The notes under the pieces were generated by a model. That model did no database searches. It worked only from the letters and a program-made list of their open reading frames with translations, and was not told the DNA's origin. The translations under genes and the position numbers were made by a program. Positions 1,292-12,185 of a stretch of 12,185 nucleotides of DNA are shown one piece after another. The DNA is from an uncultured Clostridia bacterium (GTDB lineage Bacteria; Bacillota_A; Clostridia; Christensenellales; Aristaeellaceae), in NCBI GenBank assembly GCA_947165745.1, contig CAMVBO010000022.1, positions 1 to 12,185 on the forward strand. Direction: 5' to 3'. The stretch's first letter is position 1, and every line of letters begins with the position of its first letter.

Positions 1292-1429
1292 GCGAATAAC
1301 ACGGTCACTTTGTTCGCGCACCCGCGGCGCTTCGGCAAGACGCTCACCATGAGTATGTTGGAGGTTTTTTCGATTGCTCGAGGGATAGTAAGGGGTTGCT
1401 TGATGGGCTGGGGGAGTCCTCTGTGGCAG
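1292..1429 (+). pseudogene. Relic of a DUF1703-type AAA-ATPase, frameshifted
   Basis: Translation from 1292 gives ANNTVTLFAHPRRFGKTLTMSMLEVF, which matches the Walker-A region (PRRFGKT, about 1322-1342) typical of the AAA-ATPase-like/DUF1703 family with PD-(D/E)XK nuclease tails. In this frame the match ends at the T run 1365-1370. Shifting frame there restores FFDCSRDSKGLLDGLGESS, the expected continuation, so one T seems to have been lost from a seven-T run. After about 1429 the resemblance ends. Family members are typically about 500 residues or longer, so both ends are gone. The region upstream (1200-1291) shows nothing recognisable. The 87-codon open frame from 1172 starts inside the MITE-like element and is unlikely to be a gene. 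The fragment cannot be functional. Confidence 0.62.
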
Positions 1430-1452
1430 GACTGAATAGTTACTCTGAAGGA

Positions 1453-1481
1453 TTGTATTCCGAAAGCAGCTATGTTATAAT
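1453..1481 (+). promoter_or_regulatory. Sigma-A-like promoter for the four-gene operon
   Basis: A perfect TATAAT (-10) at 1476-1481 lies 17 bp after TTGTAT (-35, 1453-1458; 3 of 6 consensus bases). Transcription would start near 1488, giving an untranslated leader of about 80 bases before the ATG at 1570. It lies just downstream of the ATPase relic and is the only convincing promoter before the operon. I saw no operator or riboswitch in the leader. Confidence 0.5.
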
Positions 1482-1569
1482 AACGCGGGAAATCCGACAC
1501 GAATGCTCGATTTACAGAAGCCCGAATCCGGACCGCAAAGGATACGACGCGTTGAAAGAGGCATGAAAT

Positions 1570-2904
1570 ATGATCCACAAGCTGATGGCAACGGGATATT
1601 GCGCCACCAGGCTGCCCGGGGCGCTGTCCTACATGCGCGAGGCCGGGCGGCTGTATCACGGTTCCCGGGAGGCCATGATGGCCTATCAGGAGGAGAAGTA
1701 TCGCAGGCTCGTTGAATATGCCTATCGTCACGTCCCTTACTATCGCCGCGTGTTTGACGGCATCGGCCTGTTCGAGGGCGGCCGGCTGCGCGAGGATCGC
1801 CTGGGGGACATTCCCATACTGACCAAGGACATCCTGCGCCAGGAGCAGGAGAACATGTATTCTGACGAAATGCGGTCGCGCAGGCCCTATTCGGCGGCGA
1901 CCTCCGGCTCCACCGGCATCCCGCTGACGATCTGGTACGACCGGCATTACATGGCCCGGAACCGGGCGGACAAGTTTTTCATGGGCCAGCTGAACGGCCG
2001 GAAGCTGGGCGAGCCGGAGCTGAAAATGTGGTTCCGGGATTTTGACCTGTATCAGAAGAACGGCAAGGACAAGGACCGCTTCTATAACTTCTTCACCAAC
2101 CGCACCTTCCGACTGGCCTCGGTGATCAACGAGGAAGCGCTGAAGGGCTATATCGATGCCATCAACCAGGTCAAGCCGGTTCAGATCTGGTCCAACCCGG
2201 CGCCGATCTTCGAGGTGTCCAAGTATGTCGTCAGCCAGGGCATCCCCGTTCACCGTCCCAGGAGCATCATCCTGACCAGCAACCCCCTCTATGACGAGAT
2301 GCGCCAGGTGATGCAGCGGGCCTTTCCCGGCACCTGGATCGTGGATCAATACGGCGGTACGGAATTCGGCGTGGTGGCTTGCGGCATCCGCGAGGACAAA
2401 AACCTGCGCATCTTCGAGCATTCCGCCCGGGTGGAGGTGCTGGACGACGCGGGCAGGCTTTTGCCCCACGGCACCGGCGACATCGTGATCACCGGGCTCA
2501 ACAACTACAGCATGCCCCTGATCCGCTATCGCATGGGCGACATGGTCAACGTGCTGCCCTATGGTGACGAGAAGGAGGGCTCCTTCGGCTCCATCTCCCA
2601 GGTCATGGGGCGGCGGCTGTCGATGCTGCGGCGGCGGGACGGCACCAGCGTGACCGGCCTGCACCTGCGCGACCTGCTGACCAAGCGCTGGATCAAAACC
2701 TTCCAGCTCATCCAGCACTCCTATGACAACCTGGAGGCGCTGGTGGTGCTGGAGGGCACGCCCCTGGAGCACCGGGAGGGCCTCGATCAGATCGCTGCCC
2801 AAATCAGGGAAGTCATGGGGGTTGAATGCCGGTTCACCTTCTGTGACAGCATTCCTTCGGAAAAGACAGGGAAATTCTACTATGTCAGAAGCGAATTGGA
2901 ATAA
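1570..2904 (+). CDS. PaaK/CapK-like adenylate-forming enzyme (phenylacetate-CoA ligase family)
   Basis: This 444-residue cytoplasmic protein has the marks of the PaaK/CapK branch of adenylate-forming enzymes, which activate a carboxylic acid with ATP and usually pass it to a thiol. Visible motifs are the P-loop TSGSTGIP (111-118), YGGTE (261-265), RYRMGD ending in Asp324, the hinge-like GRRLSMLRRRDG (348-358), and a C-terminal TGKF with the likely catalytic Lys435. Length is normal, so the enzyme appears intact. An AGAGG about 8 bases before the ATG supports this start. It is the first gene of the operon, and its end overlaps the next gene by 23 bp. The substrate cannot be read from sequence. 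CapK-type members often occur in polysaccharide gene clusters; aryl-CoA ligase activity is the alternative. No carrier-protein gene lies nearby, so the acceptor could be CoA or another operon product (inference). Confidence 0.85.
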   Translation: MIHKLMATGYCATRLPGALSYMREAGRLYHGSREAMMAYQEEKYRRLVEYAYRHVPYYRRVFDGIGLFEGGRLREDRLGDIPILTKDILRQEQENMYSDEMRSRRPYSAATSGSTGIPLTIWYDRHYMARNRADKFFMGQLNGRKLGEPELKMWFRDFDLYQKNGKDKDRFYNFFTNRTFRLASVINEEALKGYIDAINQVKPVQIWSNPAPIFEVSKYVVSQGIPVHRPRSIILTSNPLYDEMRQVMQRAFPGTWIVDQYGGTEFGVVACGIREDKNLRIFEHSARVEVLDDAGRLLPHGTGDIVITGLNNYSMPLIRYRMGDMVNVLPYGDEKEGSFGSISQVMGRRLSMLRRRDGTSVTGLHLRDLLTKRWIKTFQLIQHSYDNLEALVVLEGTPLEHREGLDQIAAQIREVMGVECRFTFCDSIPSEKTGKFYYVRSELE

Positions 2905-4096
2905 AAGGGAAGCCCTGAACCCCCTGGCCCGGGTCGCCATGGAAACGCTGGGCTGCCTGTGCGCGCTGGAAGACGCCGACGCGCTTCCTCTGCGCCCCTT
3001 CGCCCTGCCCGTGTGTACCGGCTTCGGCGAGGCCCACGACGCGGCAAGGCGCATCCTGCTGGAGACGCAATATCGGGGGCTGACCGCCCTGGCCCTGCGC
3101 TCCGGCCGTGAAACCGTGGTCGGATTCCCCTGTGTGGGCCTGGCCCGCCCCTTTACGGACGCGGGCCTGTCCTACATTGGCCTGGGCGCGCCATTGATCG
3201 TCGACGCCGCTGGAGCGCTCGGGAAAGACTCCCGCGCCGGCTTCTTTCCGGCGGACGCCACCAACCCCGCCTCGATCCTCCGGGGCCTTGAGAGCGCCCG
3301 GGGCGAGCTTTGCATCCTCACCGCGGGGCTGTTTCCCACCTTGACAGACCCGGAGCTGGACCCGCTGTGCGATGCCCTGGGCCATGCCCTGCGCGCCCAC
3401 GGCGGCGTATGGCTGACCCTGGACCCTGAATTCCCCAGCGCCTTCATGGCGATCCTGAAGGCGCTGTGCGGGGACCGCTATATGGACGTGCTGCTGCAAT
3501 CGAACGACATGCGCCAGTGGAGGACGGCGGGCCAGTTTGACAACGCCCTGATGATCGACCCCCGCTGGGATTATGAGCGCCTTCGGGATCGGGCCATTAC
3601 GCGGCTGGCCCGGCGCGGCCTTGCCGTTGCGCGAATCCCGATGGCGCCGAAGGCCCTGGCGCTGCGGTCCGTTCCCGAAACACACCCAGCCCGCGACGCC
3701 ATTCTGCAAAGCCTCGCCGGGCAATGCTGGTGGCAAATCACCGCGTCCGCCCCGGCCGGGGCGCGCCAGGTCGTCGTCCGCGCCACGGGACTGAAAATCG
3801 TCTCCCGGCGGGAGGGCGACATGCTGCGCATGAAGCTGTCCGGGCGGCTGGACACGCTGTCCGCGGAAGCCTTTTTGAATGACTTTACAGCCCGGAGCGA
3901 GGGACTTCAAGCGGTAGAGATCGACTGCGCCGCGCTGGACTACCTCTCCTCCGCCGGGCTGCGGTCGCTGTTTCAGATCCTGAACGTCTGTCCGATGAGG
4001 CTTTTGAACATCAACGAAGTGGTCGGCGACGTGCTTGAAAAGACTGGCTTTGACACGCTGGTCCAGATCAGAAACGGAGGGATGGACCATGTGTGA
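2882..4096 (+). CDS. Degenerate methyltransferase-like protein fused to a C-terminal STAS domain
   Basis: The 404-residue product has two parts. Residues about 15-290 resemble the leucine carboxyl methyltransferase/TcmP type of class I SAM methyltransferase. VVGFPCVGLARP (79-90) sits where the glycine-rich SAM loop is expected, and CILTAGLFPTLTDPELD (144-160) followed by HGGVWLTLDPEF (173-184) matches the later core strands. The SAM loop is atypical (no G-x-G-x-x-T/S-R-P), so catalysis is doubtful. Residues about 308-398 form a STAS domain like SpoIIAA/RsbV; DYLSSAGLR (353-361) holds the serines at the usual phosphorylation site. The ATG at 2882 was chosen because AGGGA lies 9 bases upstream; the frame is open further back, but that part only shadows the previous gene. 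It overlaps the preceding gene by 23 bp and the following one by 8 bp, so translation is probably coupled. The STAS call is strong; the methyltransferase-like call is moderate. Confidence 0.75.
   Translation: MSEANWNKREALNPLARVAMETLGCLCALEDADALPLRPFALPVCTGFGEAHDAARRILLETQYRGLTALALRSGRETVVGFPCVGLARPFTDAGLSYIGLGAPLIVDAAGALGKDSRAGFFPADATNPASILRGLESARGELCILTAGLFPTLTDPELDPLCDALGHALRAHGGVWLTLDPEFPSAFMAILKALCGDRYMDVLLQSNDMRQWRTAGQFDNALMIDPRWDYERLRDRAITRLARRGLAVARIPMAPKALALRSVPETHPARDAILQSLAGQCWWQITASAPAGARQVVVRATGLKIVSRREGDMLRMKLSGRLDTLSAEAFLNDFTARSEGLQAVEIDCAALDYLSSAGLRSLFQILNVCPMRLLNINEVVGDVLEKTGFDTLVQIRNGGMDHV
4076..4081 (+). promoter_or_regulatory. Ribosome binding site that sets the beta-helix protein start
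   Basis: GGAGGG at 4076-4081 lies 7 bases before the ATG at 4089, inside the last codons of the STAS gene. It favours 4089 over the in-frame ATG at 4035 and so argues that the product has no upstream leader. Confidence 0.65.
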
Positions 4097-6488
4097 GGAC
4101 TGGCGCTTTGCCGCTTTCGGCCTGAACACCTCGGCGGACGAGGCCGACAACGGCTTTTGCCGCCATGACGACGGCTCCGTCACCCTCTGGAGCCTCAACA
4201 ACCGCGGCAAGCTGAACCAGCCCTCCACGGACGGCCTGGCCTTTTACTACACATCGATCCCCGCCGACCGCCGCTTTACGCTGACGGCCCGCGCCTGCCT
4301 GGAATCCTGGACCTTTACCAACGGCCAGGAGGGCTTCGGGCTGATGGCTGCCGATCGGGTGGGCCGACACGGCGAGGATCGTTCCCTTTGGTACAATGCC
4401 TGCATGGCCGCCTGCACCCGGGTGGAATACCGGCTGGACCCGGAGACCGGCGCGGTGGTTTCGGATCGGCAATACCCGTTGATCAGCATGAAGCTGGGCA
4501 TCGGTGCCCTGCAAAAGACGGGCGTCACGCCGCAGAGCCTGCCCGAGCTGGAGGCGGGCAAACCGGATGCCGTCAAAAAGTGGATCTCCTGCCGCATGCT
4601 GCCGCTGGAAACGTCCTGCGCGGAATATGGCGAGGGCAGCTACAACCTCTTCGGGAACGAAAAGACGGGCCGCGTGGTGGGCACGGTGGCCCAGCCATTG
4701 ACGGAGGTGGTTTTGCGCCTCCGCAGGACGCCCTCGGCCTTCGAAGTGAGCTGGCTGGACGATACTGGCGCCATCCTGGGCACACAGCGCTTCTCCAATC
4801 CCGACGCCCTTCGCGCCCTTGGCGTCGACCGCATCTATGTGGGCCTGTTCGCCGCCCGGGCCTGCCGCGTCACCTTCCGGGACATATTCCTTGAAACCTG
4901 GGAAGCCGATGGAAGGGCGATCTCGGCGCAGGCCGAGCGCGTGACGCCCACCTGCCGGATCATTTCCTCGCGGCTGTCCAACCACGCAGTCTATTTCCTG
5001 CGCTTCATCACCAATGCCGACGGCACGGTATCCGTCGCCCGCCGGAGAAAGCCGGAAGGGGAGAGCGCTGTCCCGGTCAGGGCAGGGGTGCCCGCCGCCT
5101 GTCGGCTGCTGCTGGAAGAGGGCGACAACGATCTGCGGCTTCGCTTTGAGCCGAAAAAGGATTTCTGCTTTGAGAACGATATCGGCCTGTTCCGGGTGGT
5201 CAACCGGACGCTGATCCGGGATTTCGCGGTCTCCTTCGTCCCGGTGAACGGCAATAGCACGATCTACGCTTCCCCCGACGGCACGCCCGGTGGGGCGGCT
5301 ACCCGTGAATCGCCGGTGGACATCCACACCGCCATCGCCTGCGCCTCCCCCGGCTGCGAGATCATCCTGCTGGAGGGGGTATACCTGCCCGGAAAGCCCG
5401 TGGTGGTGGAGCGGGATGTCAGCGGCATCGGAGGCAGCCCCATCCACCTGCACGCGGAGGACGGCAAGCGCGCTGTCTTTGATTTCCAGAGGCGCTCCGC
5501 GGGCTTCACCTTCGCGGGCAGCCACTGGGAGATCGATCACATCGACTGCCTGAACACGGCGGATTTCAGCCCTGGCATCGCGCTGTGCGGGCACGACATC
5601 CACCTGCACCACGCGAGGGCCTGTTCGAACGGCGAGGTGGGCATCGTGGTCTGGACCCTGCAGGACACCGACACCCGGGACGATTGGCCCCACGACATCC
5701 AGGTCACCCATTGCATCTCCTGCAACAATGCTGACCCGGGTGCCACCAACGCCGACGGCTTCGCCGCGAAGCTGACCGTGGGCCCCGGGATCGTGTTCGA
5801 CCACTGCATATCCTGCTTCAACGCGGACGACGGCTGGGACCTGTTCACAAAGGTGGAACTGGGGCCCACCAGCCCCGTGGTCATCAAGAACTGCGTCGCC
5901 TTTCAAAACGGCTTCGACCCCGCCGGACGGCCGAGGGGTCAGGGAAGCGGCTTCAAGCTCGGTGGAACCAGCCTGCCCGCCGGACATTATCTGTACAACT
6001 GCGCGGCATGGAACAACCAGGGCAAGGGCATCGATTCAAACTCCGCGCCCGATGAAAACATCAAGGGCTGCACCAGCTTTGACAACCTGGGACCGAACGT
6101 GGCGCTTTACACCTCGGACGCGAAGAACACCGAATACGCCGTCCGGGGCCTGTGCTCCGTCCGGACAGCCCACAAAGATACGGAGGACATCCTCCTTCCC
6201 CGTGGGACCCAGGACGGGACCGGCCTTTACGGAAGGCGCAATTTCTACTGGCGGGACGGACAGTGCCGCAACGGGGAGGGCCTTGCGATTCCGGAATCTT
6301 GGTTTGAATCCCTGGAGGCGCCGCGGTTCGACCCGGACCGGCTGCCCGGCGCGATGGAGCGACTGATGGACGGCGACGGGCGCATCGACCTGGGCTGCTT
6401 TCTGAAGCTGACGGAAGAGGGGACGCAGGCGCTTCAAAGCGCTGGGCTTGACCCGCGGGGAGTGGCCGCCTATCTGCACGGAGAGTGA
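4089..6488 (+). CDS. PL9-like pectate lyase/right-handed beta-helix protein without signal peptide
   Basis: The 799-residue product has an N-terminal beta-sandwich-like region (about 1-270, including SLNNRGKLN at 35-43), a linker region, and a parallel beta-helix of polysaccharide lyase family 9 type (about 390-690). Family 9 enzymes cleave pectate by calcium-dependent beta-elimination. The expected residues are present: Asp556 (NADGF), Asp580, Asp581 and Asp584 (DDGWD) for calcium, and Lys623 (GFKLGG) as the likely base. The 24-residue step from Asp556 to Asp580 equals that of Dickeya Pel9A as I recall it. Such multi-domain proteins are normally secreted, yet the N-terminus (MCEDWRFAAFGLNTSADE) is polar and lacks a signal peptide. 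The start is fixed by GGAGGG 7 bases upstream and an 8-bp overlap with the STAS gene. It is followed after 7 bp by the ABC transporter. Its substrate could be pectate or another acidic polysaccharide. Confidence 0.8.
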   Translation: MCEDWRFAAFGLNTSADEADNGFCRHDDGSVTLWSLNNRGKLNQPSTDGLAFYYTSIPADRRFTLTARACLESWTFTNGQEGFGLMAADRVGRHGEDRSLWYNACMAACTRVEYRLDPETGAVVSDRQYPLISMKLGIGALQKTGVTPQSLPELEAGKPDAVKKWISCRMLPLETSCAEYGEGSYNLFGNEKTGRVVGTVAQPLTEVVLRLRRTPSAFEVSWLDDTGAILGTQRFSNPDALRALGVDRIYVGLFAARACRVTFRDIFLETWEADGRAISAQAERVTPTCRIISSRLSNHAVYFLRFITNADGTVSVARRRKPEGESAVPVRAGVPAACRLLLEEGDNDLRLRFEPKKDFCFENDIGLFRVVNRTLIRDFAVSFVPVNGNSTIYASPDGTPGGAATRESPVDIHTAIACASPGCEIILLEGVYLPGKPVVVERDVSGIGGSPIHLHAEDGKRAVFDFQRRSAGFTFAGSHWEIDHIDCLNTADFSPGIALCGHDIHLHHARACSNGEVGIVVWTLQDTDTRDDWPHDIQVTHCISCNNADPGATNADGFAAKLTVGPGIVFDHCISCFNADDGWDLFTKVELGPTSPVVIKNCVAFQNGFDPAGRPRGQGSGFKLGGTSLPAGHYLYNCAAWNNQGKGIDSNSAPDENIKGCTSFDNLGPNVALYTSDAKNTEYAVRGLCSVRTAHKDTEDILLPRGTQDGTGLYGRRNFYWRDGQCRNGEGLAIPESWFESLEAPRFDPDRLPGAMERLMDGDGRIDLGCFLKLTEEGTQALQSAGLDPRGVAAYLHGE

Positions 6489-6495
6489 GAGGCAT

Positions 6496-8619
6496 ATGAG
6501 CACAAAAATGATCGTCAGGGAAAAAGCAGACATCGCCCGGGCCCTGCTTCAGATCGAGAAGCGTTGCCAGCGACAGGACGTTCAAATCAACACCCTCCTG
6601 TGCGAAACACTGCTGATCCATTTTCTGGACAGCGGTCTGAGCGAAATCAGCGTGGCGGTGCATGCCCGCCGGATCGACCTGATCGCCCCGGGCGACGAGG
6701 TCGACTTCGTCGTGCCCCGGGACGTGAACGAAGAGACCCGCCTGGAGCTGGAGATTGGCCTCGGCATCCTGGAGAGCCATAAGAACAGGATCGACCTGCG
6801 CTATGCAAAGGGCGTCAACCGGTGCCGCGTCCACGCCGTCTCCGGCCGGGCCGCGGACCTGAGCGAGGAGATCGAAGCTTTCTATGAGAACGCGGACGAG
6901 CGCCAGCGGCAGAAGCCGACCTCCGTGCTGGTCTATCTGATGAAGCGGCACAAGGGCCTCTTCGCGGTCTCGATGCTGTTCAAGACGATCCGGCATCTTG
7001 GCGCCATGCTGCTGCCGGTGTTCGCCTCCGGCATCATCGACGTGGTGCTGGATACCAACCAGTTTTTCTGCCGCGATGTCTGGCTGAATATCCTCGGCTC
7101 GGTGCTGGCGCTGGCGGCCAACCTGCTGGGCTTCTGGGCGGAGACGATCACCTATCGGCGCTTCACCCGCAGCGTGGAATCGGGCTTCAAGCTGGCACTG
7201 GTCAAAAAGCTGCAACTATTGTCCTTCAAATATCACAACCAGGCGCAGAGCGGCCATCTGCTGTCCAAGCTGATCTCGGACATCCAGTTTGTGGGAATGC
7301 TGATCTACGACCGGCTTCAGGATGTGCTGCACCTGATTATCGATGTGCTGATCGTACTTTGCCAGACCATGCTGCGCTTTCCGCCGATGCTGGTGTTTTA
7401 TGCGGCGATCATTCCCACAGCCCTTCTGATCATTCGCAGCTTTTCCAAGCCCATCATGAAGCGGAAAACCATCATGCGCCGCAGGACGGAACGCACCAAC
7501 GCCTCCTTCAAGGAAATGCTGGAGATGGACCAGTTGACGCGCTCCCACGGCCTTCAGCAGGCGGAATTCCGGAAAATCTCCAACGAGGTCCGCCAGGTTC
7601 AGCAGGCCGCCCAGTCCTTCGATACGGTCAATGTGGCGGTCAACAGCGTCACCTACGGCGGCTTCCAGGGCTTCCGCCTGATTAGCCTGTGCTTTGCGGC
7701 CTACCTGTACACCCGGGGGCACATCAGCATGGGCACGGTGGTGCTGTTCGAATTCATGTTCGACATGCTTGTCAACAGCATCCAAAAGGTGCTGGATGCG
7801 CTGCCGCAGATCGCCCAGGACTACGACAGCCTGGCCAGCATCAACGAGATCCTGTTCGAGAAGGACGTGGAGCACAGCGGCAGCCTGCGGCTGCCCGAAC
7901 CCGTCCGCGGGGAAATCGAGCTGGATCACCTCTGCTTTGCCTACGACGACCATTCCGCGATGGTGCTGAAGGACATCAGTCTGCGCCTTCCCGCCGGAAA
8001 GGTGGCAGCTTTTGTGGGCCAATCCGGCGCGGGCAAGACCAGCCTGCTGAAGCTGATCCTGGGCCTTTATCCGCCGACGGGCGGCGAGATCCGGATCGAC
8101 GATATGAACCTGGCCGAGCTGGATCTGAACGACTATCGCCGTCATATCGCGGTCGTTCCCCAGAACACGGTGCTGTTCTCCGGCACGCTGTGGGACAATC
8201 TGGTTTTTGGGCTGAAATACGTCAGCCGCAGCCAGGTGATGGAGGTGATCCACAGCGTGGGCCTGGAGAACATGCTGCAATCCCTGCCCGACGGCCTGAA
8301 CACTGTCATCCTGGAGGGCGGCGGCAACCTGTCCGGCGGACAGCGGCAGCGTGTGGCCATTGCCCGAGCGTTGTTGAGGGACGCTCGGATCGTGCTGTTC
8401 GACGAAGCCACCAGCGCCCTGGACGCGGCCAGCGAGCAGCAGGTCCAACGGGCCATCGACGCCATGCTGTCCAAATGCACCGTCATCATGGTCGCCCACC
8501 GGCTGAACACGCTGAAAAAGGCGGATCTCATCTATCACATCGAAAATGGCCAGGCGACGCTGTGTCCGTCCTATGAATCGCTGATCGACGAATCCGCCGG
8601 GACTATGGAGCTTCGGTAA
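6496..8619 (+). CDS. ABC exporter half-transporter with an N-terminal degenerate HATPase-like domain
   Basis: The 707-residue inner-membrane protein joins six likely membrane segments (about 155-183, 196-216, 276-293, 295-315, 386-405, 412-430) to one ATPase domain. That domain has Walker A GQSGAGKT (508-515), Q-loop Gln556, signature LSGGQ (612-616), Walker B IVLFDE (632-637) and His668, so it should be active as a homodimer. The fusion order is that of type IV exporters (lipid, peptide or protein export). Residues about 10-115 precede the transporter and are not the C39 peptidase seen in bacteriocin exporters. They resemble an RsbW/SpoIIAB HATPase: CETLLIHFLDSG (36-47) at the N-box and IGLGILESHKNRIDLRYA (87-104) at the GLG region. 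The N-box Asn is replaced and the DxGxG box is poor, so kinase activity is unlikely. The start at 6496 has GGAGAG 10 bases upstream. This is the last gene of the operon. Confidence 0.85.
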   Translation: MSTKMIVREKADIARALLQIEKRCQRQDVQINTLLCETLLIHFLDSGLSEISVAVHARRIDLIAPGDEVDFVVPRDVNEETRLELEIGLGILESHKNRIDLRYAKGVNRCRVHAVSGRAADLSEEIEAFYENADERQRQKPTSVLVYLMKRHKGLFAVSMLFKTIRHLGAMLLPVFASGIIDVVLDTNQFFCRDVWLNILGSVLALAANLLGFWAETITYRRFTRSVESGFKLALVKKLQLLSFKYHNQAQSGHLLSKLISDIQFVGMLIYDRLQDVLHLIIDVLIVLCQTMLRFPPMLVFYAAIIPTALLIIRSFSKPIMKRKTIMRRRTERTNASFKEMLEMDQLTRSHGLQQAEFRKISNEVRQVQQAAQSFDTVNVAVNSVTYGGFQGFRLISLCFAAYLYTRGHISMGTVVLFEFMFDMLVNSIQKVLDALPQIAQDYDSLASINEILFEKDVEHSGSLRLPEPVRGEIELDHLCFAYDDHSAMVLKDISLRLPAGKVAAFVGQSGAGKTSLLKLILGLYPPTGGEIRIDDMNLAELDLNDYRRHIAVVPQNTVLFSGTLWDNLVFGLKYVSRSQVMEVIHSVGLENMLQSLPDGLNTVILEGGGNLSGGQRQRVAIARALLRDARIVLFDEATSALDAASEQQVQRAIDAMLSKCTVIMVAHRLNTLKKADLIYHIENGQATLCPSYESLIDESAGTMELR

Positions 8620-8633
8620 ACCACGGACAGATC

Positions 8634-8662
8634 GAGGACTCCCCAAAGGCGGGAGAGTCCTC
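8634..8662 (+). terminator. Strong hairpin just after the operon, possible terminator
   Basis: GAGGACTC (8634-8641) pairs perfectly with GAGTCCTC (8655-8662). Three more C-G pairs are possible inside after one bulged A. It starts 15 bases after the ABC-transporter stop codon, as expected for the end of the operon. The U tract of a standard intrinsic terminator is missing, so it may instead protect the 3' end of the message. Confidence 0.4.
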
Positions 8663-9317: not shown

Positions 9318-9917
9318 TCAAGCCTTCTTCATGTCGAACCGCAGCCGGTACTCGCAGGCCCGGGCCCCCTCGGAAACCGCTGAGTTGCGGTCATAGCGGA
9401 TGTGCCGGAAGCCCTGGGAGTATTCCTTGTCCATGTGGCAGATGCACAGGACGGCCTTTTCATCGCCCAGTTCCTTGGCCAGCTCATGGTAGGGGCAGGA
9501 GAGGATGTCCACGCCGTACATCTCGGGAGGCTCGGAGACCAGCTGGCTGCGATAGCCGAGCTTCTCGCTGCTCATCTTCTTCATAACGCCCTCCACATGG
9601 CGCCAGACGAGGCGGTCCGCGCCGGGCAGGCTTGTCAGAGCGTGAATGATCCGGGCGAAGCGCCTGCCCATTGCCTCGCCATAGCCGTTCAAAAGGCCCT
9701 CGGCGTCCTCTCCCCGCACCGTCAGCGCGCGGTATAGCGCGACGGCCGGGAGCGTCATGGCGCCCTTGTGCCGCTTCAACTCCGGCCTTGAAGAGAGAAT
9801 TTTGCCGTATTCCTTTCCGGCTTCATTCCAAATCTCATCAGCGGCGTCCCTGCCCAGCGAAGCCGCGAGCCGCTTTCTAAAGCCCCTGTAAAACCATTGC
9901 CTGTTCAGCGGATTCAT
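9318..9917 (-). CDS. L-2-amino-thiazoline-4-carboxylic acid (ATC) hydrolase family protein
   Basis: The 199-residue soluble protein ends with the pattern typical of the ATC hydrolase family: CPYHELAKELG starting at Cys141, then LCICHMD (157-163), and a final GARACEYRLRF with Cys188. The named activity opens the ring of 2-amino-thiazoline-4-carboxylate in a bacterial route to L-cysteine, but most genomic members are untested and this name is by family only. The N-terminal half is helical and poorly conserved, as is usual. Length is close to that of other members. AGGAG lies 7 bases before the ATG at 9917 and confirms the start. It follows a membrane-protein gene by 33 bp on the same strand and is probably co-transcribed from the promoter at 10652-10680. 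No cysteine-pathway gene is nearby. Confidence 0.75.
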   Translation of the reverse strand: MNPLNRQWFYRGFRKRLAASLGRDAADEIWNEAGKEYGKILSSRPELKRHKGAMTLPAVALYRALTVRGEDAEGLLNGYGEAMGRRFARIIHALTSLPGADRLVWRHVEGVMKKMSSEKLGYRSQLVSEPPEMYGVDILSCPYHELAKELGDEKAVLCICHMDKEYSQGFRHIRYDRNSAVSEGARACEYRLRFDMKKA

Positions 9918-10742: not shown

Positions 10743-11741
10743 TCAGCGTGAAGAAGTGACGCGCCCGTATTGTCGGTGCACTTCGTCCCAGCCGGGCATC
10801 TGTGCCCTCAATGCGTGCCAGTGGGGCATGGGCGCGTCGGGCGTCCGGGCGATCACTTCCATGAAGGCCGCGTCCAGCATCTCCATCTCCTCATAGGCGT
10901 TGCGGCAGTGCTCGCAGGCCACCAGGTCGCCGATGGTCTTGTTCTTTGCCATGACGAAATAGAGGAATTGCATCAGCTTGCCACGCGGGCCGGTGGCGTA
11001 GTAGCGGTCGTCGCCCGCGGGCAGTATGGGAACGCCCTGCGCCTTCAGCATGGCGAAGGCCTCGCGGGAGGCCAGCCGCATCAGCTTGCGCTGGGCCCCG
11101 GTGGAGGCGCGCATGTCCCCGCCCGAGGCGTAGGCCAGGTAGCCGATGGGCAGGATCGCCGCCAGGTGGCAGATCAGGTAGGCCTCCATGTCCGGCTGCC
11201 AGTTGAGCTTATAGCCGGTGCCGGCGAAGGCGTTATTCAGCTTCGACCGGGTTGCTTCGTCCGGCAGGTGGTGCAGGCCGCCGAGGTCCATGTTGCCCGC
11301 GCCCAGCCGCTCGCAGACCAGCAGCCCCTCGTCCAGATCCCGCTTTCCGGCGGTCACCTGGAAGCCGAACAGCACCTGCTTTTCGCAGACGGTCCCGCTG
11401 AGGATGGCCTTCTCCATCCCGGCGGGATTCATGTTGTTGCCCACGAGTATGACCAGCGGCGAACGGACCACGGCCAGCGGCTGGAGGATGGCACTGATTT
11501 TGTTGTAGGGCATCACGGCGAACACCGCGTCGTAACGGTCGCCTTCGGAAATATCGCCGATGACCTTCGGATGATCCAGCGTGTCCCGACGCTGCAAATG
11601 GTGGAAGATCCGCAGCCCGTGGGCTTCCAGTTGAGACTTCCACTTGCCCCGTGCCAGCACGGTCACGTCGTTTCCCGCGCGCATGAGCACATGGGCAAGA
11701 TAGCTTCCGATGACGCCCGAGCCATAAACCAATACCTTCAT
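10743..11741 (-). CDS. Ketopantoate reductase (PanE/ApbA)-like oxidoreductase lacking the usual catalytic lysine
   Basis: The 332-residue protein starts with a Rossmann NAD(P) site, VLVYGSGVIGSYLA (3-16), and has a helical C-terminal domain as in 2-dehydropantoate 2-reductases. In true PanE the motif W-x-K-L-x-x-N supplies the catalytic Lys. Here the matching stretch DMEAYLICHLAAILP (184-198) has Tyr188 and His192 in place of Lys and Asn. So it probably belongs to a relative with another substrate rather than pantothenate synthesis. The ATG at 11741 is preferred over 11750: an AGGA lies 8 bases before 11741, but only AGG, directly abutting, precedes 11750. The upstream alpha/beta hydrolase gene stops one base before this ATG (two overlapping-start options exist), so the two are surely co-transcribed and translationally coupled. 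Confidence 0.78.
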   Translation of the reverse strand: MKVLVYGSGVIGSYLAHVLMRAGNDVTVLARGKWKSQLEAHGLRIFHHLQRRDTLDHPKVIGDISEGDRYDAVFAVMPYNKISAILQPLAVVRSPLVILVGNNMNPAGMEKAILSGTVCEKQVLFGFQVTAGKRDLDEGLLVCERLGAGNMDLGGLHHLPDEATRSKLNNAFAGTGYKLNWQPDMEAYLICHLAAILPIGYLAYASGGDMRASTGAQRKLMRLASREAFAMLKAQGVPILPAGDDRYYATGPRGKLMQFLYFVMAKNKTIGDLVACEHCRNAYEEMEMLDAAFMEVIARTPDAPMPHWHALRAQMPGWDEVHRQYGRVTSSR

Positions 11742-11742
11742 T

Positions 11743-12185
11743 TCATTCATCCTGCCATTCTTTCATCTTGCGCACCATCATGTCCCAGCCCTCCTTGGCC
11801 TCCCGACACACGGGGAACACCGGGTAGCAGTGAAACATGCCTTCGCCGACGATCATCTCGTAGTCCACGCCGTATCGCTTCATCGCCGCCTCGAAGGAGG
11901 GCGCGCAGGCGGAGAGCGTCTCGTGGCTGCCGTAGATGAAGGTCACCCTCGGGCAGTTCGTGAAATCGCCCGTTTGCAGCCAGAGCATGTAATTCGGCAC
12001 GCGGTCGTCGCCGTGGCGCATGATCTCCTCGGCGGTCTTCATGTACTGCGCCGGGATGGCCACGTCCAGCCTGTCCAGCGCCAGCATCCGCTGCCACTCC
12101 TCATCCGTGTCCACGCAGGTGCCGGGGGAGATGGCCATGATGTGGCCGGGCATCGGGGTGTCGCCGTGGCCGTCGTTGATGTAGG
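11743..12185 (-). CDS. Alpha/beta hydrolase, C-terminal part (runs off the window)
   Basis: About 146 residues are visible; the frame is open to the window edge and the N-terminus, with the oxyanion hole and nucleophile, lies outside. The visible part fits the end of an alpha/beta hydrolase of the esterase/lipase (Abhydrolase_3) type. MAISPGT resembles the SPW/SP-type strand after the nucleophile, FIYGSHETLSACAPSFEAAM resembles the acid-bearing strand, and EGMFHCYPVFP carries the likely catalytic His. The acid is not certain, because GSHE stands where G-x-D/E-E is common. The frame has an internal ATG at 12153, but coding sequence clearly continues before it (YINDGHGDTP). The stop lies just before the ATG of the ketopantoate-reductase-like gene, and the pair forms an operon. 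Confidence 0.62.
   Translation of the reverse strand, partial: YINDGHGDTPMPGHIMAISPGTCVDTDEEWQRMLALDRLDVAIPAQYMKTAEEIMRHGDDRVPNYMLWLQTGDFTNCPRVTFIYGSHETLSACAPSFEAAMKRYGVDYEMIVGEGMFHCYPVFPVCREAKEGWDMMVRKMKEWQDE

Follow-up and report, generated by a model that had tools for sequence, protein, structure and literature searches.

A clostridial gene cassette combining a STAS-domain fusion protein with an ABC exporter that carries an RsbW-like head

The window that we analyzed, a stretch of 12,185 nucleotides from an uncultured Clostridia bacterium, contains a compact cassette, LIG-STASF-BHX-ABCX, whose four open reading frames all lie on the forward (+) strand. The cassette encodes a PaaK-like adenylate-forming enzyme (LIG, 444 aa, 1570..2904), a fusion of a methyltransferase fold with a STAS domain (STASF, 404 aa, 2882..4096), a leaderless PL9/PelX-like beta-helix protein (BHX, 799 aa, 4089..6488), and an ABC exporter with an N-terminal head (ABCX, 707 aa, 6496..8619). 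An earlier note had described four overlapping or nearly abutting genes behind a single promoter. The coordinates confirm the first part of this description: the start of STASF overlaps LIG by 23 bases, BHX overlaps STASF by 8 bases, and a 7-base gap separates BHX from ABCX. The single promoter stands in part. A putative promoter read from the sequence, TTGTAT-17-TATAAT (1453..1481, + strand), is conserved in genome G001, but it was not listed in a scan for consensus promoters, and just three of the six bases in its first hexamer agree with TTGACA. The window and the nearest genome share a block, 95.8% identical in DNA, that stops near the limits of the operon and has inverted repeats at its own borders; a hairpin behind the operon (8634..8662, no strand assigned) has a left arm that recurs in inverted form at 1411, close to the block's left end.

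Matches to Pfam and to PDB structures bore out the identities previously proposed for the STAS, adenylating, PL9 and ABC exporter parts. LIG was recognized by phmmer through PaaK structures (E 6.4e-14) and keeps the adenylation motifs TSGSTGIP, YGGTE and RYRMGD as well as the C-terminal KTGK. Its Pfam AMP-binding match is weak (18.9 bits, below the 29.9 cut-off), and all its NCBIfam matches of the PaaK type remain under their cut-offs, including that to the phenylacetate-CoA ligase model TIGR02155 (62.2 bits, cut-off 646.3).

The predicted structure of STASF (AF2 pLDDT 85.5) comprises two domains. Residues 11-291 (2912..3754, + strand) adopt the fold of LCM/PPM1-type methyltransferases, but residues of that family's SAM-binding motif are lost. 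Residue 102 is Gly in all seven operon-type members and Asp in all 15 others, while the motif-I Gly (85) is kept in one of six operon-type members (one row being gapped) versus 15 of 15 others. Residues 303-400 (3788..4081, + strand) form a STAS domain (PF01740, E 2e-10) with the fold and the conserved serine motif of SpoIIAA/RsbV antagonists, serines 356/357 being kept; as modeled, this domain resembles SpoIIAA.

BHX matches PF22842 (8.7e-7) and the structure 1ru4 (E 1.4e-18), and both alignment to 1ru4 and motif search indicate that the calcium ligands and the catalytic Lys of Pel9A are retained; the residue roles and numbers that we take to apply to Pel9A map onto BHX with a constant offset of 25. 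PL9 lyases depend on calcium and are normally secreted, but BHX lacks the expected signal peptide. The claim that the protein is leaderless is upheld by the peak N-terminal hydrophobicity, which is 0.32-0.88 in all four operon copies versus 2.5-3.4 in non-operon relatives (the nine with a judgeable N-terminus among 17 fetched). The judged relatives from the same bacterial family have signal-like N-termini and look secreted.

ABCX matches PF00005 and PF00664, and its ATPase carries Walker A, LSGGQ, Walker B and the H-loop. The head, residues 1-119 (6496..6852, + strand; AF2 pLDDT 85.9), matched nothing in Pfam at E values up to 1. Foldseek and VIA-align nonetheless assigned its predicted model to the Bergerat fold of the RsbW/SpoIIAB type, the Foldseek hits to RsbW and other anti-sigma proteins (E < 0.001) having TM-scores, normalized by query length, of 0.46-0.60; comparison with RsbW in hhalign gave a modest probability of 41%. 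These data agree with the HATPase-like head previously noted on the exporter. When columns were mapped through hhalign to RsbW, the N-box Asn was present in one of 48 heads and the G1-box Asp in none of the 48, the window's own head having His and Ala at these positions. With these ATP-site residues gone, the head probably does not function as a switch kinase.

The cassette is more than a chance assembly, since its block recurs in other genomes and the operon genes are under purifying selection (dN/dS 0.10-0.45 in 11 comparisons). LIG-STASF-BHX are linked in all three loci found (G001, G303 and G372). ABCX follows directly in two of these, in one as a fusion; in G303, no exporter start occurs in the 137 bp remaining on the contig. 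The fusion, in G372, joins BHX in frame to the cytosolic N-terminus of ABCX, with the caveat that the junction retains a start codon and an RBS-like sequence. The four-gene neighborhood is only partly conserved. Of the 18 related exporter loci, 16 carry neither LIG nor BHX nor an LCM-STAS gene within the sequence fetched; at one of the 16 (L062), a solitary STAS gene lies about 4.5 kb off. The head is therefore not specific to the STAS domain of STASF and has wider uses.

We consider it possible, at a little under an even chance, that the cassette forms a membrane-bound unit for regulated export, held together by the STAS domain docked on the ABCX head. The head would have turned into a pure binding platform on which the STAS domain docks as SpoIIAA does on SpoIIAB, and docking would gather the scaffold, LIG and BHX at the cytosolic face of the exporter, where an acid- or uronate-containing product could be passed to the pump. 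Docking would be set by phosphorylation and dephosphorylation of Ser356/357 in the STAS domain, through a canonical RsbW-type kinase and a PP2C phosphatase assumed to be encoded elsewhere. In line with the earlier note, neither a sigma factor nor a PP2C phosphatase was found in the window, and a scan of 10 window proteins found neither PP2C nor an intact kinase; HATPase_c_2 matches are present elsewhere in G001. STAS-head docking is plausible. Against the export-unit reading stand the exporter loci without the other genes, the G303 locus without an exporter start, the modest profile match of the head, the finding of LIG alone in genome G382, and the rate of STASF, the fastest-evolving member of the operon (omega 0.29-0.45).

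Known systems share parts of this arrangement. In RsbV/RsbW and SpoIIAA/SpoIIAB, the two folds are those matched by the cassette's STAS domain and head, and the motif serines are kept, but in the cassette the kinase-like half is built into an exporter and lacks the ATP-site residues, with no sigma factor or PP2C phosphatase found in the window. In the phospholipid transporter MlaFB/MlaFEDB (PMC7367683), the STAS protein MlaB sits on the ABC ATPase MlaF, and the authors of that study raise the possibility of similar STAS regulation more broadly. As proposed for the cassette, a STAS-domain protein there is the regulatory partner of an ABC transporter. MlaB, however, contacts the nucleotide-binding domain itself, whereas ABCX offers an anti-sigma-kinase-fold head, is of the fused transmembrane-plus-ATPase type, and is accompanied by a STAS domain joined to a methyltransferase fold.

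An alternative that we rate as unlikely treats the operon as a metabolic or surface-glycan unit, in which uronate oligomers would be shortened by BHX within the cell and activated at their carboxylate by LIG, for ABCX to export or flip the resulting product; STASF and the head would regulate through partners from elsewhere, with no mutual contact. The intact catalytic motifs of BHX and LIG suit such a unit. In G376 an exporter gene is followed, with overlap, by genes for HD, PglD-like and AMP-binding proteins, and G216 carries a homologous trio in the same order; the combination of exporter and adenylating enzyme therefore recurs, although that enzyme shows no detectable relationship to LIG. 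Yet the low-calcium cytosol would be an unusual workplace for a calcium-dependent and usually secreted type of lyase, none of the four operon genes was found to encode a glycosyltransferase, and this reading does not account for why one operon should hold both halves of a switch pair.

It is quite unlikely, in our estimate, that the head is instead the cargo- or leader-docking (or dimerization) domain of a divergent leader-peptide exporter, in the position that other exporters give to a C39 peptidase or HlyB-type domain, with STASF engaged in something else such as partner switching in trans. The best NCBIfam match of ABCX is indeed the NHLM/NHLP bacteriocin exporter TIGR03797, although its 283.6 bits are far under the 709.4 cut-off. 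Mutually homologous double-glycine-leader peptide genes lie within about 120 bp of, or overlap, the exporter gene in three standalone exporter loci (L061, L064 and L056), and in G058 an LCM-STAS gene stands amid double-glycine leader ORFs that are Nif11-like (a family name given by eye). By the pattern used, however, no such ORF occurs in the window or at the operon loci of G001, G303 and G372. Nor is the overall density clearly in excess of background: the exporter and operon loci yielded six leader ORFs over 351,619 bp, the other loci two, both in G058, over 228,322 bp; and the domain itself resembles RsbW/SpoIIAB.

BHX might also be the cargo, a leaderless lyase exported in a type I-like manner with LIG and STASF as accessories. 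Although a lyase with intact motifs adjoins an exporter that type I secretion models match (below cut-off), and its relatives in the same bacterial family bear signal-like N-termini, we regard this as very improbable, as the in-frame fusion to the exporter's cytosolic N-terminus in G372 should block export and no membrane fusion protein is encoded among the four genes. Finally, a decaying or selfish cassette with no maintained joint function is hardly credible: the G001 copy of STASF carries a frameshift, a stop occurs in three of the 18 matches to related exporters, splitting the frame in two of these, and inverted repeats mark the borders, but against this stand the purifying selection, the retained catalytic motifs, and the open frames of LIG, STASF and BHX in the window, G303 and G372.

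If the docking that we favor is true, a sigma-factor switch has been rewired into direct control of a pump within a small, testable cassette. In this exporter family, the kinase-fold half of a partner switch is part of the transporter chain itself, and one family member occurs together with a STAS partner, which hints at a form of pump control not reported before. The tie of a leaderless PL9-type lyase to the pump is a further addition; compared with PelX/Pel9A, whose beta-helix, calcium ligands and catalytic Lys it shares, BHX is distinguished by the missing signal peptide and by its fusion with an ABC exporter in one genome. On a wider view, which as a whole we hold to be rather unlikely, anti-sigma-kinase domains have been repeatedly welded onto transporters in these Clostridia, the exporter head without an ATP site serves as a STAS receptor, the phosphorylation state of the STAS::pseudo-methyltransferase scaffold gates the loading of LIG and the lyase, and the module moves as one cassette.

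Links between transporters and RsbW do recur. Protein P0088 is an exporter relative with an additional, intact RsbW domain, although it might stem from two neighboring genes whose separating stop was lost. The nearest genome encodes a MATE protein and an ABC importer ATPase, each with a C-terminal HATPase domain. Together with the BHX::ABCX fusion of G372, these proteins are consistent with transporters and switch proteins being physically linked.

The operon comprises four open reading frames on the forward strand of the window (1570-8619). The first (1570-2904) encodes LIG, a PaaK-like adenylate-forming enzyme that matches PaaK ligases in the PDB (E 6.4e-14) and retains the adenylation motifs, its matches to curated models all falling under their cut-offs. 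LIG overlaps by 23 bases the gene for STASF (2882-4096), a fusion of a methyltransferase (LCM) fold to a STAS domain, which in turn overlaps by 8 bases the gene for the leaderless PL9/PelX-like beta-helix protein BHX (4089-6488). After a gap of 7 bases follows ABCX (6496-8619), the ABC exporter whose N-terminal RsbW/SpoIIAB-fold head has lost its ATP-site residues. A putative forward-strand promoter upstream of LIG, TTGTAT-17-TATAAT (1453-1481), is kept in the nearest genome, G001; the pair is missing from the output of our consensus promoter scan.

The earlier note had looked to repeated co-occurrence of these genes. This was borne out for LIG-STASF-BHX and only partly for the exporter, which is accompanied by the other three genes in 2 of its 18 loci. 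Among 308 genomes from this bacterial family, four carry LIG (E <= 1e-60), and a genome scan for the STASF clade returned three loci, in G001, G303 and G372. G001 has all four genes, with STASF broken by a frameshift that divides it into two overlapping frames (L021 8864-10236); other loci hold intact copies. In G372, which belongs to a different genus, LIG-STASF is followed by a single reading frame of 1,541 residues comprising BHX and ABCX; an internal ATG and an RBS-like stretch are still present at the junction, so separate translation of the two proteins may be possible. G303 carries LIG-STASF-BHX, the exporter start being absent from the 137 bases that remain on the contig after BHX, and in G382, which has LIG, the other three genes were not found in the 19 kb fetched. 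A search for the exporter itself at E <= 1e-100 found it in 18 of 300 family genomes. Its head was found in 16 of the 18 loci (E <= 1e-3), twice with a stop-split frame, and L063 and L066 gave no match to it in this search. No LIG, BHX or LCM-STAS gene was found in the remaining 16 exporter loci within the stretches fetched (about 8-10 kb per side, shorter at contig ends). In L062, a lone STAS gene lies about 4.5 kb from the exporter.

The window and G001 share a single block (1408-8601), aligned at 95.8% identity across 7,195 bases. Beyond this block, comparing the window with L021 gave nothing but short repeat-like matches, none longer than 92 bases. Pieces of the window's right flank match elsewhere in same-genus genomes, including other contigs of G001. 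This flank holds a minus-strand gene of the L-2-amino-thiazoline-4-carboxylic acid hydrolase family (9318-9917) and, beyond it, genes for an ApbA-like reductase (10743-11750) and an alpha/beta-hydrolase (11743-12183). The left border of the block lies near GGGGAGTCCTC (1411), an inverse copy of which stands at 8634 in a hairpin downstream of the operon; an 11-base inverted repeat, GGGGAGTCCTC / GAGGACTCCCC, is found at the borders (1408-1421 and 8634-8662). The right end of the block falls 18 bases short of the end of the exporter gene, and in G001 a GC-rich palindromic repeat adjoins the left border. Judged from its borders in this one genome pair, the cassette appears to move as a unit. Identity to the window ranks G001 > G303 > G372 for LIG, STASF and BHX alike, as expected of joint inheritance. 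Upstream, a MITE- or REP-like repeat of about 165 bases (1035-1203) has many copies in same-genus genomes, with matches on both strands. Positions 1172-1435 likely hold what is left of a PF09820-type AAA-ATPase gene (38 bp, 89% to the gene at L053 6042-7913); G372 has an intact gene of this type directly upstream of the operon.

Transporters joined to switch-kinase folds recur in these bacteria, with the ATP site kept in some and lost in others. P0088, an exporter of the same family as ABCX (863 aa, 29 member sequences), combines a degenerate N-terminal head with a C-terminal RsbW/HATPase_c_2 domain (residues 723-856; RsbW-like model E 1.8e-38, PF13581 E 1.2e-16) and was the only match to the RsbW-like model among the proteins searched. 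MATE-family proteins bear a C-terminal HATPase_c_2 domain in G001 (L039 1486-3219; PF01554, and PF13581 E 1e-10) and, close to the exporter, in G301 (L063 2698-4452), the N-box Glu and Asn being retained by eye. An ABC importer-type ATPase (L040 721-1818; PF00005) adjoins permease-like and binding-protein-like genes in G001; its C-terminal HATPase_c_2 domain (PF13581 E 3.2e-6, just over the cut-off) has the motif CEELIYELL, by eye near the CEELL.HLL of the exporter heads. The PF13581 search returned many further long frames, and in the same bacterial order L101 (223-1890) encodes a rearranged switch protein with STAS, phosphotransferase (APH) and HATPase_c_2 domains in a single chain.

Our preferred reading is a unit at the membrane, held together by a STAS domain that would dock onto the degenerate exporter head; the earlier note, too, proposed docking on the head. 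The fold identities are well supported; the docking, a kinase and phosphatase acting in trans, and the cargo are what we infer. Partner switching is known to be reused for non-sigma outputs, and a limited literature search found no description of an RsbW-like head on an ABC exporter. We rate the cassette as a variation on known kinds, itself new.

Some of the other neighbours of the exporter bear on two rival readings, a metabolic or glycan unit and an exporter of leader peptides. In G376, the exporter is followed, with an overlap, by genes for HD, PglD-like and AMP-binding enzymes (L058 10847-14000), and homologues of this trio stand in the same order in G216 (L060 5510-8719), the Pfam run having covered L058 only. 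In G309, class III nucleotide cyclase and metallo-beta-lactamase-fold genes lie upstream of a head-bearing exporter (L055 10884-13108); close by, the opposite strand carries a gene for a cNMP-binding protein. As for leader peptides, homologous double-glycine-leader genes adjoin head-bearing exporters at three loci (L061 8655-8963, L064 5385-5603 and L056 8563-8805); the family was found in 26 of 308 genomes, and the overall density of such frames was not clearly higher than background. Around an LCM-STAS gene in G058 lie several Nif11-like double-glycine leader frames and Sel1-repeat-like proteins, named by eye (L027 7512-14533). A headless ABC exporter stands about 40 bp downstream of the LCM-STAS gene in L031 (7281-10493), and G372 has a similar exporter close to a second LCM-STAS gene (L053 1-4281).

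Export of BHX is a further rival reading. BHX can be aligned with Pel9A (1ru4), and alignment and motif search show that it retains the Asp residues and the Lys, which we take to be calcium ligands and the catalytic base, respectively. The N-terminus is hydrophobic in none of the four copies from operons (peak 0.32-0.88); all nine N-termini judged among non-operon relatives are hydrophobic (2.5-3.4; 9 usable of 17 fetched, the start for L114 being taken inside the ORF). BHX homologues occur in 33 of 308 family genomes, three of them with operon copies.

A decaying cassette, with the broken STASF of G001 in mind, is the reading that we favour least. Simple Nei-Gojobori counts over 11 comparisons, in which the G303 and G372 values are rough because synonymous divergence exceeds 0.8, gave omega of 0.10-0.21 for LIG, 0.17-0.21 for BHX, 0.23-0.29 for ABCX and 0.29-0.45 for STASF, estimates that show all four genes to be under purifying selection.
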